DNA of 32,490 nt. It comes from Nitrospirota bacterium (GTDB lineage Bacteria > Nitrospirota > Thermodesulfovibrionia > Thermodesulfovibrionales > Dissulfurispiraceae). The notes under the pieces were generated by a model that was given only the letters and a program-made list of their open reading frames with translations, was not told the origin of the DNA and did not search any database. Made by a program: the position numbers and the translations under genes. The stretch spans positions 1-32,490 of the forward strand of contig JAFGXL010000023.1 in assembly GCA_016936655.1 (NCBI GenBank), in the 5' to 3' direction. How positions within the stretch are numbered: position 1 is the first letter of the stretch; each line of letters starts with the position of its first letter. This document shows positions 3,141-19,625 of the stretch, in pieces.

Positions 3141-5582
3141 ATGGGAAAAGAACGCAAGTTGACTAGAAGAACATTTATTAAAAGCAGCGCTGTAGCAGGA
3201 GCTGCGGCAGCTGTATCCCCTGAGCTACTGCACCAGATATACAGCGATTCCGCAGATGCAAGGATGAATTCTCTCGATTACGACAAAGTTGTAAGAACTG
3301 CCTGCTCACCCTCTTGCGCCGGGCAGGTATGCGGATTGAATGCATTTGTAAAGAATGGCAAAATCATAAAGATTGAGCCTGCAGAATTTCCTGACCCAAA
3401 ATACAAACGAATATGCCTCAAGGGATTATCTCATCTGGAACGCACCTATCACCCTGATCGCCTCAAATATCCGATGAAACGCATAGGCAAACGAGGTGAA
3501 GGGAAGTGGCAGCGCATATCCTGGGACGAGGCATTAGATACAATTGCCTCCAGAATAACTGAAATTAAAGAAAAGCATGGCAGCGATTCACTTGTTTTCA
3601 TGCCGGTTGGAGGCGGAACAAGTACAGTTCTCAATAGCAGATCCGGTTGGCGCCTTGCTAACCTTTTAGATGCACAAGCAGTAGCATCAATATCACTTCA
3701 TGGAGATCTGGCAGTTGGAAACCTTATGACTTTGAGCTGGAAAGGCGGCACCCCGCGCGGTTCACTGCTCGGATATACTGAACCTTCTGATTACAAAAAC
3801 TCCAAGCTTATCATTCTCTAGGGTGAAAACACATCCGAATCGAGAATGATGGATATGCATTTTATGTACGATGCTATGGACAATGGAGCAAAAATAGTCT
3901 CAATTGATCCGAGATTTACATCAACCGCAGCAAAAGTCAATCAATGGATACCGATCAAACCCGGCACTGATGGAGCACTTGCGCTTTCAATGATGCATGT
4001 GATCGTAGACAAAAATCTCCATGACAAGAGCTTTATTGCCAAGTATACTGTCGGGCCATTTCTTGTCAGAAGCGATAATGGCATGTTTCTCCGGGATAAA
4101 GACATAAATGAAAAAGGCGGAGATGCCTACCTGGTATATGACATTGCAGGCGACAAACTCGATCATTCAGCTAAAAATGCAGAACCAGCATTAATCGCTA
4201 AAAGAGAAGTCACACTCAAGAACGGATCAAAGATAACTGTAGAAACAGCATTTTCACTACTTAAAAAACTTGCTGACAAATATCCTCCAGATCTTGCATC
4301 TAAAATCACAACTATACCTGCAGCTCAAATTGAAGCCTTAGCTGTAGAATACGCCAAAACAAAACCAAGCCTTATACGCATTGGGAGATCATTCCATGTA
4401 TATATGGATGGGCACAATGCTCAGAGGGCTGTAATCACGCTCGGGGCACTCACTGGAAATATCGGTAACTCTGGCGGTGGAGTTCTCCATGGAGGAGGCA
4501 CTCAGGCGATTGGAGGATCTGCACTGTCTCGATTCAACATGAAGGAATTTCTCAGTCCTACAGGCAAACCGCTAAAAGTGCTTCCTGGTCTTCACCTGAC
4601 AGGGAATCCAGAAATCGCAAAAAGGACAAAATTTCTCTGGGTATCGGGCAAAAACCCGATTAACCAGTCTCCAGCAAAAAACAAGTTCATAAATGAAATA
4701 CTTCCAAACTATGAGTTTTTTGTTGTTATGGATCAGTTCATGACAGTTACAGCTGAGCATGCCGACATTGTTCTTCCAGCATGCTCATGGTTTGAAAAAA
4801 CTGATATAGCTGTTGCTGTTCACTACTACCTGCAGCTACAGCAAAAAGCAATTGAACCGCTGCATGAGGCCAGACCAGAAATAGAAGTTTATGGCCAAAT
4901 TGCAAATAGACTTGGTTTTGGAAAATATTTTGAAAAAACCAGTGAGGAATGGCTCGAACTTCTGCTCAACAATCCAAGAGCAACAGAGCTTCAGGGAATC
5001 ACACTGGAGAAGCTAAAGAAAGGTGCTTGCAGAATCAATGTTCCAGATCCATATATCGGATGGTCAGATAAAAAGTTCCTTACTGATTCGCAGAGAGTGG
5101 AATTTTATGTAGAGTGGCTTAAAGAGTACGGAGAAGAACTCCCGCTATTTAAAGATCCATACGAAGTTTCCTCCAAAAATCCGCTCTATAAAAAATACCC
5201 CCTAATGTTCCAGCAGGGGCATACACGCTACTACGCCCACTCTCAGTTCGGCGCATATAACCCCTCTATGCTCGAACTGCATCCAGAACCTATGATGAGC
5301 ATCCACCCCTCGGATGCAAAATCAAGAGGCATTAAAACTGGTGATATTGTTTCGATGTTCAACGATAGGGGCAAGCTTAGCTGCAAGGCTCTGGTTACTG
5401 AGGGGATTGTTCCAGGGTGTGTCCATATACCAGAGGGATGGTGGCCTAGACACTATCGTGGGGGACATCACAACGAACTCACTCATGACACCATGACAAA
5501 AGCGACTTCACAGAATGTCAAATTACGTCGTGAATCGAACAGTCCATTTTACGATGTCCTGGTTCAAGTAAAAAAGGCCTAA
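3141..5582 (+). pseudogene. Molybdopterin oxidoreductase catalytic subunit (DmsA-like) interrupted by an in-frame TAG
   Basis: Reads as one 813-residue protein, close to DmsA length, if the TAG at 3819-3821 (codon 227) is ignored. Both halves are in the same frame. The N-terminus carries a twin-arginine signal (TRRTFIK plus an Ala-rich stretch), so export is expected. An Fe-S motif CSPSCAGQVC...CLKG follows, then the molybdopterin-binding core and a C-terminal MopB-type domain (NDRGKLSCKALVTEG). At the stop the sequence runs LIIL-TAG-GENTSESRMMD, where relatives generally have Trp, so one G-to-A change explains it. The downstream half shows no frameshift and looks conserved, which argues for recent inactivation, read-through or a base error. 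The substrate (DMSO, polysulfide or another) cannot be assigned. No membrane-anchor subunit gene follows. Confidence 0.8.
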
Positions 5583-14223: not shown

Positions 14224-15969
14224 TCATTCAGGAAGAGGCGCTCCTGCTGCCTTTATCTTTCCCTGCACCCTCTCTTTAAGCCCCTCTTCATCCTTATGAA
14301 GCTTGAGGACCTTGTACCAGGCCTCGAGTGCATTTTTCATGTCTCCTTTTTTATGGTAAACATCTCCGATATGCTCGTATATGGCAGGATCATCCTTCAC
14401 CATCTTTGCAGCCCTCTGCAGTTCAATAAGCGCCTCGTCCAACCTGCCTAGCCTAAAGTATGCCCATCCGAGACTGTCAACTATATATCCGCTGTCAGGC
14501 TTCAGCTCAATCGCTCTCTGAATCAGCCTCAGAGCCTCCTCCAGATTCACATTATTATCGGCATATGTGTAGCCAAGATAGTTAAGTGCATCAACATGAT
14601 CAGGATTTAAATTAAGAGTCTTTTTAAGAAAAGATATCATCTCATCGTTACTCTTCAGCTTTTCATACAGCACTGCTGTCTGAAAATTAATCTCATCATG
14701 ATCAGGGAACTTCTCGACACCCTCTTTAAGTAGCGCCTGCGCCTTGTCAATCATCTTCAGCTGCATATAGAGATGGGATAAATATATATAAATTTCGGGC
14801 TTGCTCCTCTCAAAACTCAGAACCTCTTCATAAACAGCAACAGCCTCTTTATATTTACCCTTTCTGGAATAGACCATAGCCATGCTCATAAAAGCATTTA
14901 TATTTTTTGGATCTGTCTCGAGCACCTTTCTCAGCTCAGCAACAGCCTGATCAGGCCTGTCAAGCTCATCAAGTGCCAGAGCCAAATAGTATCTTGTTGC
15001 TATGTCTTTGGGAAATTTGCCAAGAAGAATCCTGAACTCAGAAACAGCCTTTTCATACTCCCTCTGCTGAAGATACAGCAGCCCTAGTCTCTGGTTAATA
15101 AGGAGGTTTTCCGGAGATTCCTTTGAAAACTCCTGAAGCTGCTCAATCGCCTTGCCATAAGACTTGTCCTTTATATAAAACTGGGAAAGCCTCTCTCTGG
15201 CCATAAAATTTCTCGGGTTTATATCGATAGCCTTTTTATAATACTCTTCAGCAGACTGCCTGTTCCCCTGAGCCTCGTATATTATCCCAAGATTGTAGTA
15301 AGCAGCATCAAATCCCTGCCTAAGCTCAGTTATCCTTAGAAAACTCGTCTCAGCTTTTTTGAACTCTCTTTTATCAATATAGATTGTGCCAAGATAGTAA
15401 AGAGCCATCACATTATCCCTTTCTGCCTTTACAACTGTCTCGAATATGTCAGCAGACCTGTCCAAATCGCCTTTAGAAAGATACAACATGCCGAGCATAA
15501 GCCTTGGCTCTGCCCTCTCTGGCTGAAGTGAATAGAGCTTTTCATATATTTTGATAGCTTCATCGTAATTCTTCTGAGAGTTGAATATTTCACCTAAAAG
15601 TCTGAGTGCTAGCGTATCATCTGGATTGCGCTTTAATATGTCTGTCAAAACCTCCTGAGCCTCGATTATCCTGCCTGTCCTTATTAAAAGCCCGCTCATA
15701 CGCGCCTTAAGATAGTCTGAAGACGAATCTATGGTAGCAGCGTTTTTATAATGCCTGAGCGCCACATCGAGCCTGCCCTCCAGCTCAGCAATAGAGCCCA
15801 TCATATACTCGTAATAAGCACGTGACTGGATTATATGCTCAACTTTTTTAAACAACTCAGATGCATTGGCCTTCTTTTCTTCAGCAGCAGCAGCGCCTAG
15901 TGAATCTGCCAATGGGAAGATGAGAATTAAAGAGAAGAAAATTGACTTTATAAGGTTTTTATTTATCAT
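14224..15969 (-). CDS. Exported TPR-repeat protein
   Basis: 581-aa protein with an N-terminal hydrophobic signal (INKNLIKSIFFSLILIFPLADSLGA) followed by about a dozen tandem tetratricopeptide repeats from residue ~40 to the end, many with the W/A-Y-x-G-x-A consensus. It probably acts as a scaffold in the periplasm or at a membrane, and no enzymatic motif is seen. The ATG at 15969 was chosen because GGTG precedes it and it starts the signal peptide. An upstream GTG at 16002 would place the first codons inside the terminator hairpin at 15984-16015. The gene opens the ispE-prs-pth run. The client protein cannot be told. Confidence 0.88.
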   Translation of the reverse strand: MINKNLIKSIFFSLILIFPLADSLGAAAAEEKKANASELFKKVEHIIQSRAYYEYMMGSIAELEGRLDVALRHYKNAATIDSSSDYLKARMSGLLIRTGRIIEAQEVLTDILKRNPDDTLALRLLGEIFNSQKNYDEAIKIYEKLYSLQPERAEPRLMLGMLYLSKGDLDRSADIFETVVKAERDNVMALYYLGTIYIDKREFKKAETSFLRITELRQGFDAAYYNLGIIYEAQGNRQSAEEYYKKAIDINPRNFMARERLSQFYIKDKSYGKAIEQLQEFSKESPENLLINQRLGLLYLQQREYEKAVSEFRILLGKFPKDIATRYYLALALDELDRPDQAVAELRKVLETDPKNINAFMSMAMVYSRKGKYKEAVAVYEEVLSFERSKPEIYIYLSHLYMQLKMIDKAQALLKEGVEKFPDHDEINFQTAVLYEKLKSNDEMISFLKKTLNLNPDHVDALNYLGYTYADNNVNLEEALRLIQRAIELKPDSGYIVDSLGWAYFRLGRLDEALIELQRAAKMVKDDPAIYEHIGDVYHKKGDMKNALEAWYKVLKLHKDEEGLKERVQGKIKAAGAPLPE

Positions 15970-15983
15970 TTCACCATTCTGAC

Positions 15984-16015
15984 TAAAAATAAAGGGGGTC
16001 ACTACGACCCCCTTT
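15984..16015 (-). terminator. Intrinsic terminator after the peptide gene
   Basis: A perfect 10-bp stem AAAGGGGGTC/GACCCCCTTT with a 5-base loop is followed on the minus strand by ATTTTTA. It closes the transporter-radical SAM-peptide operon and lies only 15-46 bases before the TPR start codon. Downstream genes therefore depend on read-through or on a promoter within this narrow gap. Confidence 0.88.
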
Positions 16016-16038
16016 ACAGATTATGATCCCAGTTTATA

Positions 16039-16101
16039 CTAGCAAGAGCCTTTGCACTTGCATGTTGTTGCTGTCTTTTTTGACACCTTTCTGATTGTCA
16101 T
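16039..16101 (-). CDS. 20-residue Cys-containing peptide, putative RiPP precursor
   Basis: Encodes a 20-residue peptide that begins MTIRKVSKK and ends TTCKCKGSC, with Cys at positions 14, 16 and 20 and a basic N-terminal half. GGGAGG is placed nine bases before the ATG, which is strong for this genome. It starts 15 bases after the stop of the SPASM radical SAM gene and is followed directly by a strong terminator, so it is a real transcriptional unit despite its size. The likely role is substrate of that enzyme, with the C-terminal CKCKGSC as the modified core. From memory it resembles the short precursors named CbpA that accompany radical SAM CbpB, but this is unverified. No protease or exporter gene is adjacent, so the mature product and its destination are unknown. 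Confidence 0.8.
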   Translation of the reverse strand: MTIRKVSKKTATTCKCKGSC

Positions 16102-16116
16102 CGCATTTCCTCCCTT

Positions 16117-17334
16117 TCATAGGGTCTTAGGCAGATTCATTCCGCCTGCTCTATCATCATTATAACCGTATGCCCTGCATTTGTAAACATCTCTCAGTCT
16201 AGATATTCCATTGCTTTGAGCGAGAAAATTCTCGCCATTTGATATGCCAGCCCTGTATCTGCATCCTCCCCTGCACTCATTTATCCAAGGACATGAAACA
16301 TCCGAACACTCCAGATTAGAAAGCATGATCGGCTCTATCCTCTTCCAGCATATTGCGAGACCTTCGGTAATATTGCCTGCCGGCCTGTCCGCATAAAAAG
16401 CGCACTTTGCTACAGATCCGTCTGCCAGCACAGAGGCTAGATGCAGACCGCACCCATAGCCTTCACTGCTTCCGTGCATCCCTTCGCTGAATCCATAAGA
16501 AAAATATCGACCGCCTTTCTCTGGAGATACAGATAGCTCATTATTTGCACCCAGGCTTCCGGAAATACATGGCACATCAACTATCCAATCCTTTATGCCC
16601 ATGCTACTGAAAAGGTTATCCATCTCATCAAACTCATCAAGATTGCAGCTGTGCACCATAGTAGCCACAGAAGCTGATATACCGGATGCCAAAACATTTT
16701 CGAGACTGTTCATAACCTTGTCATAAGAGCCTGCGCCGCGCAGAACTTCATGGCCTCTGCGCATTCCGTCTATGCTGAATTGTATCTCATCAAAATTTAT
16801 GCCCGAGATCCGCTCTTTGGTCAGCATAAGGCCATTGGTAAGCAGAACCTTTCTGAGTCTGAAGCTATGAAGCAGGTCGTTAATACTGTCAAAACATCTA
16901 TGCAATAGCGGCTCGCCTCCTGTTACAAGAAGCCTTAGACCCTGCATCTGCTCAAACTGTGATATTGCGTCCAAAATCGTCTCTGGGGCAAGTTCCCTGC
17001 CGGAAGGTTCGCCTATATAACAGTGTTTACATCTTAGATTGCATCTGTCTGTAATCTGAAGTTCAAGATATCGAAGAGACGGGAAGGAAGGCTTATTAGT
17101 TTCAGCAGCAAAATGTTTATAAGGAGTTTTGTCTGTAATTATGCCTTCATGTACACAATAATCGATAAATTCTGAATCAGCATCTGCAGGAGACGCGCCT
17201 TCAGGACCAGAGCACTTTTTGAGAAAAGAGAATGCCTCAGCATCCAGTTCATAAAGCTCATCAGCCTTTATGTTGTAGACTGACGGAGCTTCGAGGTTTT
17301 TAAGTGCGAAATAGTCTAAAAGGTAGAGACGCAT
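16117..17334 (-). CDS. Radical SAM/SPASM peptide-modifying enzyme
   Basis: 405-aa protein in three parts. An N-terminal ~85-residue segment of the size and place of a peptide-recognition (PqqD/RRE-like) domain comes first. The radical SAM core follows, with C98-x3-C102-x2-C105 and TGGEPLL at 138-144. The C-terminal SPASM domain has Cys at 295, 311, 343, 348, 354, 358 and 386, enough for auxiliary 4Fe-4S clusters. Such enzymes install thioether or other crosslinks in ribosomal peptides. The tiny Cys-rich peptide gene 15 bases downstream is the obvious substrate. Upstream lies an amino-acid ABC importer, 33 bases away. No Shine-Dalgarno is visible before the ATG. It may be the CbpB-type maturase, by memory only. 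Heme or quinohemoprotein maturases are less likely given the neighbour. Confidence 0.88.
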   Translation of the reverse strand: MRLYLLDYFALKNLEAPSVYNIKADELYELDAEAFSFLKKCSGPEGASPADADSEFIDYCVHEGIITDKTPYKHFAAETNKPSFPSLRYLELQITDRCNLRCKHCYIGEPSGRELAPETILDAISQFEQMQGLRLLVTGGEPLLHRCFDSINDLLHSFRLRKVLLTNGLMLTKERISGINFDEIQFSIDGMRRGHEVLRGAGSYDKVMNSLENVLASGISASVATMVHSCNLDEFDEMDNLFSSMGIKDWIVDVPCISGSLGANNELSVSPEKGGRYFSYGFSEGMHGSSEGYGCGLHLASVLADGSVAKCAFYADRPAGNITEGLAICWKRIEPIMLSNLECSDVSCPWINECRGGCRYRAGISNGENFLAQSNGISRLRDVYKCRAYGYNDDRAGGMNLPKTL

Positions 17335-17367: not shown

Positions 17368-18132
17368 TCAAAATATTGACCTCTGCAGCACTCTCCTTAA
17401 AAAGGTCTTTGTTCTTTCGGTCTGTGGTGATGTAAATATCTGTTCAGGGCTGCCGGATTCTACAATATCCCCATTTTCGATCACGATCACCTTGTCTGCC
17501 ATTTCTCTGGCAAAGTGCATCTCATGAGTTGCTATCAAAGTTGTCATACCCTCAGACACCAGATCCTTGATTACACTTAAAACCTCTCCAACCATCTCAG
17601 GATCCAGAGCTGATGTTGGCTCATCAAACAGCATTATCTCAGGCTTCATGGCGAGTGCCCTTGCAATCGCCACCCTCTGCTGCTGCCCTCCGGACAGCTG
17701 CCCTGGATAACTGTCCGCCTTGCCTGACATATTGATGCGTTCGAGCAGCCTGCGCGCTCGCTCATGCGCTTCATCAGGAGAAAGCCCCAACACATGCACA
17801 GGCGCCTCTATTATATTCTCTATGGCTGTCATGTGCGGAAATAGATTAAACTGCTGAAAGACCATTCCAGCCTTGAGCCTTACCTGCCTTATAGACTCCT
17901 TTTCTTCAGCGCTGAGCCCTTTTGACGGTATTGAGTGAAGAGAGATGCCGCAGACATCAATTTCTCCGCTATCAAATGTCTCGAGCCCGTTTATGCACCT
18001 AAGAAGAGTACTCTTTCCGCCTCCGGAAGGACCGATCAGCACCAGAGACTCGCCCTTTTTAACATCTAGATTGATGTCCTTAAAAAGCTGATGGCTACCG
18101 TATGATTTTCTCAACTCTCTTATATGTATCAT
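17368..18132 (-). CDS. glnQ: Polar amino acid ABC transporter ATPase
   Basis: 254-aa ATPase of the GlnQ/HisP type, energising uptake through the fused binding-protein/permease encoded just before it. All motifs are present: Walker [11 protein letters not shown]-loop [16 protein letters not shown], signature [15 protein letters not shown], Walker [14 protein letters not shown] and the switch His in IATHEM. Its ATG overlaps the preceding stop (ATGA), showing coupled translation. Gln is only the nearest family name, and the true amino acid is not defined. Confidence 0.92.
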
Positions 18133-19625
18133 TTATGCCCCTTGAGCCTCTGCTCAAGCCTGGATGCAAGAAGAGAGAGAGGATAGCTCATGCCGAAATA
18201 GAGCAAAGCGACTATGATTCCCAGCTCAAAAAATCTGAGAGTTGATGCAGCCAGTATGCTGTATGTCTTTGCAAGTTCAACCATCGCAATTATAGAGACT
18301 AGAGATGAGTCTTTAAACAGCGCTATAAAGTCATTTGTTATCGCAGGAAGAGATACCCTTAGAGCCTGCGGCAGAAGTATTCTCCTTATAGCTACATTAC
18401 TGCTCATCCCCAGAGACAGCGCTGCCTCCATCTGCCCCCTCGGCACTGAATTGATCCCTGCCCTGTAGACCTCTGCCTCATAAGCAGCATAATTCATTCC
18501 AAGCCCGATGAATGCCGCAGCAAGCGGGCTGAGAGAAATGCCTATGTTTGGCAGCCCGTAATAAAGTATAAACAGCTGAATGAGAAGAGGCGTGCCTCTG
18601 TAAAATTCAATGTAGGCTGAAGCCGTTATTCGAGCTGGCGCCTGTCCGTACAGCTTCATAAGAGCGAGACATAGCCCAAGAATTACAGCAAAAAACATTG
18701 ACACAACAGATATCATCACGGTAACGGCAGCGCCCTTCAGTAATGTGGGTACAAAAGTATAGAGCGGAGCCTGTCTAGACTCTTTCAGGCCTGCTGCAAC
18801 TGATGATTTTTCCTCTATGGTTCTCAGCAGATCTGCCTGGTCGCTGTTCCACATATCCCACTTCTTGTAAATCCTAGCGAGGTCGCCCTCGTTATAAAGT
18901 TTAAGAAGAATCCTGTCGAGCTCCTTTTTAAGCTCAATATTCTCCTTTCTGACAGCTATGCCATAGTACCCTCTGCCTATCGGATCTCCAACAAACTTCA
19001 GCTTGTCATTAGGCTTTGCGTAGTATGCTGCAATAGGCAGATCAAGGAGTACTCCATCTATTCTGCCGAGTGCGAGATCTTCATAAGGCTCTACCTGGCC
19101 GGGGTAGATCTTCACGATTATTCCGGTCTCTTTTTCAAGTATGGTTTGCGCTGCAGTACCGGAGAGTGTGCCTGCCTTTTTGCCCTTCAGATCCAGTAGG
19201 TTATTTATTGTGCTGTCATCTGCACGAACAACAAGCTGTTCTGAATAAATGTAGTATGGAGCAGAGAAAATTATCCTGGATTCACGCTGTTCTGTTATTT
19301 CTATGCCATTCATGGCTATATCTGTGTCCCCGCGTTCAAGAGCAGGTATCAGACTATCCCATGCATTCTGGACATGCCTCGCCTTAACACCCAGCTCTAC
19401 TGCTATGGCTTCGGCAAGGTCAACCTCAAATCCGATTTTTCTTGAAGGTTTTTCAGGATCAGGGAATATATATGGAGCCCCGCCCTCGGCATCCGCTCCC
19501 CAGAGAATATAGCCTCGCTCTTTTATCAGCGAAAGCGCATCAGTATGAGGTCTGTCCTGAGAAACAAAATAAAGGACAGACCCCATAACTGCAACCAACA
19601 AAAGAGCGCTGATTTTCTTCTTCAT
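18129..19625 (-). CDS. Fused substrate-binding protein and permease of an amino acid ABC importer
   Basis: 498-aa fusion. An N-terminal hydrophobic anchor (residues ~5-20) is followed by a periplasmic SBP_bac_3 domain (~30-265, with [11 protein letters not shown] and the [11 protein letters not shown] segment). A HisM/GlnP permease domain fills ~285-498, with several membrane helices and the coupling motif [24 protein letters not shown]. Such fusions are known from GlnPQ of lactic acid bacteria. The ATPase overlaps its end by four bases. It is the first gene of a four-gene unit ending with the radical SAM enzyme and peptide. A TTGACC hexamer at 19671-19666 could be its -35 but a matching -10 is poor. 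The ligand is unknown. Confidence 0.92.

Follow-up and report, generated by a model that had tools for sequence, protein, structure and literature searches.

Is a 20-codon open reading frame beside a radical SAM/SPASM gene the precursor of a modified peptide and, if so, what is made from it? The question is raised by a 32,490-nucleotide stretch of DNA, hereafter the window, from a Nitrospirota bacterium of the family Dissulfurispiraceae (GenBank assembly GCA_016936655.1, contig JAFGXL010000023.1). An earlier note, made from the sequence alone, had proposed that the two genes form a minimal SPASM-enzyme/peptide pair of the RiPP type, and a lack of conservation of the small ORF had been set beforehand as an outcome that would refute it.

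ORF analysis agrees with that note in placing a 20-residue peptide, with three Cys among its last seven residues, behind the SPASM radical SAM gene; 15 nt separate the enzyme stop codon from the peptide ATG (Table 1). The peptide, MTIRKVSKKTATTCKCKGSC, has a basic N-terminal half and ends in the tail TCKCKGSC. The sequence directly upstream, gaaagggaggaaatgcgATG, contains a strong Shine-Dalgarno element, in line with the ribosome-binding site described previously. The intrinsic terminator that had been noticed downstream corresponds to a hairpin with a 13-bp stem beginning 21 nt past the peptide stop codon.

Table 1. Features of the enzyme and peptide locus, in window coordinates.
Feature	Position	Strand	Basis
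Radical SAM/SPASM enzyme (proposed peptide maturase), 405 aa	16117..17334	(-)	ORF and PF04055, 65.7 bits
RRE-like N-terminal domain of the enzyme, residues ~1-65	17140..17334	(-)	Foldseek, predicted fold
Proposed precursor peptide MTIRKVSKKTATTCKCKGSC, 20 aa	16039..16101	(-)	ORF and conservation
Shine-Dalgarno of the peptide, aaagggagg	16108..16115	(-)	Low-entropy stretch just 5' of the start in all relatives
Predicted peptide promoter inside the enzyme ORF	16159..16187	(-)	11/12 sigma70-type matches
Predicted intrinsic terminator 3' of the peptide	15989..16017	(-)	13-bp stem, 3-nt loop, T tail

The peptide is conserved at the codon level

A 20-residue ORF ending in TCKCK(G/S/N/A)SC lies on the same strand, 3' of the enzyme, in 44–45 of the 72 genomes of the same order that carry the enzyme, typically 15–120 nt downstream. 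The full tail was not imposed by the search, whose loose rule asked for C.C with a third Cys close to the end. A DNA pattern for CKCKxSC followed by a stop codon found matches in 72 of 100 relatives, while its reversed control found 0, indicating that the peptide is real and not a chance ORF; the same pattern was present in 95 genomes of a 296-genome phylum sample. A CKCKSCC match in genome G028 was discarded as chance, since it has no start codon and contains an in-frame stop.

Among the matches listed there are about 130 distinct peptides, all of 19–20 residues and all with a strong ribosome-binding site. The tail TC-K-C-K/H-x-S-C is kept in the relatives, both beside and away from enzyme genes, with silent codon positions free to vary; the test set for the small ORF was thus passed. 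Four positions outside the pattern are also nearly constant, with I3 in 132, K5 in 131, K/R8 in 133, and T13 in 131 of 134 peptides (T13 was imposed only in the set from the named-genome scan). For the invariant residues, every available synonymous codon is in use: the Cys, Lys, and Ser codons differ in their third positions from peptide to peptide, and those for I3, K5, K/R8, and T13 vary too. Bases flanking the ORF are random, the Shine-Dalgarno sequence excepted. These codon patterns indicate that the peptide is under strong protein-level selection.

In three genomes that have the enzyme but gave no match to the pattern, K17 is naturally replaced by H (CKCHSSC or CKCHQSC), and in two of the three the full 20-residue ORF was read. 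Given the pattern and these variants, C14, K15, C16, S19, and C20 are fixed, position 17 holds Lys or His, and position 18 is free to vary. The His17 peptides TCKCHQSC and TCKCHSSC occur in two unrelated families (L329 and L330), with a match also in L328. Two contigs (L139 and L217) each hold two near-identical peptide copies ~1.4–1.5 kb apart. None of 32 peptides matched an NCBIfam model, and the peptide was not found in plasmid and phage collections.

Enzyme and peptide are inherited together, linked or not

The enzyme was present in 72 of the 100 genomes of the order that were searched. Both genes were found in 71 of these relatives, the enzyme alone in one (G084, 86% complete), the peptide alone in one (G043), and neither in 27. 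After follow-up, the 296 Nitrospirota genomes contained 96 with both genes, one with only the enzyme (G310), two with only the peptide (G043 and G302), and 197 with neither. Fisher tests on these raw tables, which ignore relatedness, gave 1.9e-19 for the 100 relatives and 1.9e-67 for the 296 genomes. Six families (f1, f2, f3, f4, f9, and f13) each mix genomes that have both genes with genomes that have neither; with families standing in for a species tree, this mixture suggests that joint gain or loss has recurred.

The enzyme gene is not followed by the peptide in 27 genomes of the order; 26 of them carry the peptide at another place in the genome. Such coupling without linkage is the strongest argument that enzyme and peptide act together. 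Pairs that are coupled though far apart are missed by neighbourhood-based RiPP mining. The three exceptions in the phylum sample are of both kinds: the near-complete genomes G302 and G043 (L255) have a canonical peptide and no recognisable orthologous enzyme was found in them, and a peptide search of G310 returned none. Taken together, conservation and co-inheritance strongly support the minimal enzyme/peptide pair of the earlier note; almost certainly the two genes encode a precursor and its maturase.

Among the matches listed in the scan of named genomes, the peptide is confined almost entirely to Nitrospirota, including Thermodesulfovibrio, Ca. Magnetobacterium casense, Ca. Magnetominusculus xianensis, and many MAGs. 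The pair also occurs in at least a few MAGs labelled Syntrophaceae, Deltaproteobacteria, Proteobacteria, and Poribacteria, a lower bound for the distribution outside Nitrospirota that comes from the peptide DNA pattern in named genomes. It was found in none of the genomes of f27, a large family of mostly 3–5 Mb genomes in the phylum sample, and a single-sequence search of named genomes with the enzyme as query gave no match. As a correlate of the pair, dsrA was uninformative because 94 of the 100 relatives have it. Nitrospirota are largely uncultured, and most hosts of the pair are uncultured anaerobes; the phylum-level family described here has a precursor about as short as any known, below default gene calling.

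The peptide probably has its own transcription unit

A sigma70-type promoter candidate absent from the earlier note lies within the 3' end of the enzyme ORF. Its -35 box (TTTACA, 16187-16182) and -10 box (TATAAT, 16164-16159) are separated by a 17-nt spacer and match 11 of 12 consensus positions. The -35 box coincides with the codons of V-Y-K beside the SPASM residue C386, and the -10 box with those of G-Y-N, so that the predicted substrate promoter is written into the last codons of the maturase. Of 44 loci where the peptide adjoins the enzyme, 34 have a site with at least 10/12 matches at the enzyme 3' end, compared with 0 of 27 loci where it does not (Fisher 1.2e-11). Both groups encode Tyr(Phe)-Lys(Arg)-Cys; the difference lies in the C-terminal DII/GII/GYN stretch that spells TATAAT.

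Similar signals accompany the wider peptide set. Promoter sites of at least 10/12 lie upstream of 52% of 141 peptides compared with 3.4% of control windows, and a terminator lies within 80 nt 3' of 57% of peptides compared with 2.4% of control windows. Judged from these signals, the peptide is very probably a transcription unit of its own. A separate promoter and terminator would allow the substrate to be transcribed independently of the enzyme, probably above its level, and the likely purpose of this arrangement is an excess of substrate over enzyme.

The enzyme resembles RRE-bearing SPASM maturases

The core Cys residues C98, C102, and C105 (CxxxCxxC) and the seven SPASM Cys residues (C295, C311, C343, C348, C354, C358, and C386), both already recognised in the earlier note, are invariant in 71 of 71 orthologues. 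The latter follow the seven-Cys pattern C-x-GX4C, C-xn-C-X5-C-X3-C, C, with C311 reached through G306 and X4. An AlphaFold2 model of the enzyme (pLDDT 90.7) matched SkfB best over the whole chain (Z 25.8), followed by SuiB (Z 25.3, aligned from residue 2) and then anSME and CteB.

The note had also guessed at an N-terminal recognition domain. When this domain was folded alone and searched with Foldseek, RREs made up nearly all of the top 20 matches (best E 4.9e-3, probability 1.00), including TbiB1-leader complexes, LynD/TruD, lasso B1, SuiB, MccB, ThcOx, and CteB. The Pfam PqqD model did not match the enzyme by sequence. The predicted fold thus identifies the domain as an RRE. Residues 1-68 are acidic, with 14 D/E and 5 K/R.

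Sequence models place the enzyme outside the named families. Its best score against named NCBIfam maturase models was 75.7 bits, compared with a cut-off of 400 (TIGR04340), and all 25 NCBIfam families listed for it fell under their own cut-offs. A proposal of the earlier note that did not hold was a likeness to the CbpA/CbpB systems, which share a short Cys-containing peptide with a radical SAM partner: the enzyme scored 39 bits against TIGR04163 (cut-off 375), and TIGR04165, a model of 50 positions, was matched neither by the peptide nor elsewhere at the locus.

Comparison with known systems

In its working the pair is like other RRE-SPASM systems, among them the SCIFF peptides of Clostridia (CteA/CteB and Tte1186; ranthipeptides), which likewise pair a lineage-wide, non-bacteriocin-like, Cys-rich peptide with an RRE-bearing SPASM enzyme. 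The fold of CteB is one of those nearest to our model (Z 23.9). However, SCIFFs are defined by six Cys in ~45 residues, whereas the ~130 distinct peptides found here have three in 19–20, belong to another bacterial group, and are often unlinked to their enzyme. SCIFFs were judged unlikely to be antimicrobials because they are widespread in Clostridia (PMC8326336).

The sactisynthases SkfB and AlbA share the RRE and radical SAM core with the Nitrospirota enzyme, and AlbA also has seven C-terminal Cys (PMC6231123). In contrast, SkfB carries a single auxiliary cluster in a Twitch domain, and the precursors of both are longer and give rise to bacteriocins with exporters. SuiB/SuiA, the streptide system, combines a small precursor with an RRE and SPASM enzyme, and 360 residues could be aligned (Z 25.3), but SuiB forms a Lys-Trp C-C bond and the Nitrospirota peptide has no Trp. 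PqqA/PqqE and mycofactocin MftA/MftC are physiological systems in which a very short precursor meets an RRE-bearing SPASM enzyme; they involve no Cys chemistry, no further pathway genes are linked to the present pair, and the enzyme scored 63.7 bits against the mycofactocin model, far under its cut-off of 265.

The pair is best regarded as an unnamed RiPP family that is new but works by a mechanism of a kind already known. Full-text literature, in which few subscription journals are covered and an earlier description could thus stand elsewhere, yielded no relevant paper on the tail sequence and no radical SAM RiPP described for Nitrospirota or Thermodesulfovibrio. All evidence considered, we hold with good confidence that the pair encodes a maturase and its substrate in an undescribed, Nitrospirota-centred RiPP family, with a tail that is probably thioether-crosslinked and a housekeeping role likelier than that of a bacteriocin.

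Proposed modification of the tail

Family knowledge and conservation make it very likely that the enzyme places a covalent, radical-based modification on the tail. In the mechanism that we propose, the basic N-terminal half, MxIxKVxKK, would serve as a leader that binds the acidic RRE by adding a strand to it. A 5'-deoxyadenosyl radical formed at the core cluster would then abstract hydrogen from one residue of T-C-K-C-(K/H)-x-S-C, and at least one thioether ring would be closed by a Cys sulfur that may be bound at an open iron site of the auxiliary cluster. Seven Cys for two clusters, as in AlbA, had prompted the proposal that one site is left open to bind the thiolate of the substrate, and CteB shows such a site (PMC6231123).

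On the same grounds of family and conservation, we lean modestly towards a modification that includes at least one Cys thioether. A thioether is no more than the most likely option, since other SPASM enzymes form C-C bonds (SuiB) or formylglycine (anSME) or epimerise residues. An alternative, which we regard as unlikely, is a modification of one of these other kinds (a C-C or C-O crosslink involving Lys, Thr, or Ser, conversion of Cys or Ser to formylglycine as in anSME, or epimerisation) that would leave the thiols free for metal. SuiB, with its C-C chemistry, and anSME are indeed among the closest folds, two of the invariant residues (K15 and S19) are not Cys, and C14, C16, and C20 together with K or H17 resemble a metal-binding set; even unmodified, the conserved tail could act as a small metal ligand. 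Against this, a cluster of three invariant Cys in a seven-residue stretch is what thioether RiPPs typically have, and a SPASM domain with seven Cys agrees with the proposed binding of a substrate thiolate. Within the radical SAM/SPASM subfamily, chemistry is not predictable from fold (PMC6231123). A 20-residue substrate can be made by chemical synthesis, and the chemistry of the enzyme is thus directly testable.

Gene neighbourhood and possible role

No recurring exporter, peptidase, or immunity gene was found near the peptide loci. Given that the pair is retained across the lineage in single copy, with no recurrent transporter or peptidase and no dependence on synteny, a housekeeping product that acts inside the cell or in signalling (redox or metal) is favoured over a bacteriocin. 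We consider such a role, whether in redox, metal, or signal functions, likely from conservation and from what is known of the enzyme family. The tight co-inheritance also offers a clean system in which to study the purpose of lineage-wide, non-bacteriocin RiPPs.

Genes of the oxidative-stress type (rubrerythrin or rubrerythrin-like, Fe-SOD, nitroreductase, flavodiiron, or CMD) lie within 4 kb of the peptide at 42 of 144 loci, a raw count with no background control. They occur in bacterial families other than that of the window and are absent from the window and from Thermodesulfovibrio; the count hints at a role in redox stress. It also bears on a second alternative, that a small cofactor or metallophore is cut from the peptide, as PQQ is from PqqA, for anaerobic metabolism or defence against oxidative stress. 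Lineage-wide retention in single copy would suit such a product, but the neighbour count has no proper background, the association does not extend to the window or Thermodesulfovibrio, and no dedicated protease is linked, and we find this explanation doubtful. Equally tentative is the more specific proposal that the ribosome makes the 20-mer as the precursor to a new redox or metal cofactor of peptide origin, a Cys-based counterpart of PQQ or mycofactocin in anaerobic sulfur-cycling and magnetotactic Nitrospirota, with the peptide's own promoter overlapping the codons of the last cluster-binding Cys of the maturase.

A bacteriocin or competition peptide is far less probable: sactipeptides such as SKF and the ruminococcins do use the same kind of enzyme, but the loci have no recurrent exporter, immunity gene, or peptidase, and the sequences are highly uniform across the phylum in a vertically maintained pair. 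The idea that the small ORF arose by chance, or serves as a regulatory leader or as part of an RNA that is not translated, can draw on its position between promoter and terminator, with a predicted transcript of ~165 nt that is typical of small RNAs, but is next to negligible in view of codon-wise conservation with synonymous drift, fixed length, a strong Shine-Dalgarno sequence, co-inheritance even when unlinked, and an Rfam search that matched no family.

Other features of the loci

At 11 of the 144 peptide loci, a further radical SAM gene, shorter than that of the maturase, is found within 4 kb. Seven loci (L036, L049, L055, L058, L062, L154, and L174) have a second radical SAM/SPASM gene of ~315–365 codons near the pair, a possible extra tailoring enzyme, and some loci with a second radical SAM gene also contain a flavodiiron protein and an AhpD-like gene.

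The neighbours in Thermodesulfovibrio and in the family of the window include a TPR protein, ispE, prs, rplY, and pth; the TPR-ispE-prs arrangement looks like ordinary synteny. The TPR protein of the window (14224-16002, minus strand), downstream of the peptide, scored 281 bits against the NCBIfam model of the magnetosome protein MamA (cut-off 200), a level that generic TPR repeats alone could perhaps explain. The same TPR family adjoins the unlinked peptides of Thermodesulfovibrio.

An amino-acid ABC transporter gene (18129-19625, minus strand), upstream of both an ATPase gene (17368-18132) and the maturase, encodes a solute-binding domain and a permease fused in one 498-residue protein. Elsewhere in the window, a gene for a molybdopterin oxidoreductase of the DMSO-reductase type (3141-5582, plus strand) contains a single in-frame TAG at 3819-3821, which divides it into ORFs of 226 and 578 residues; the two halves otherwise read as one protein.
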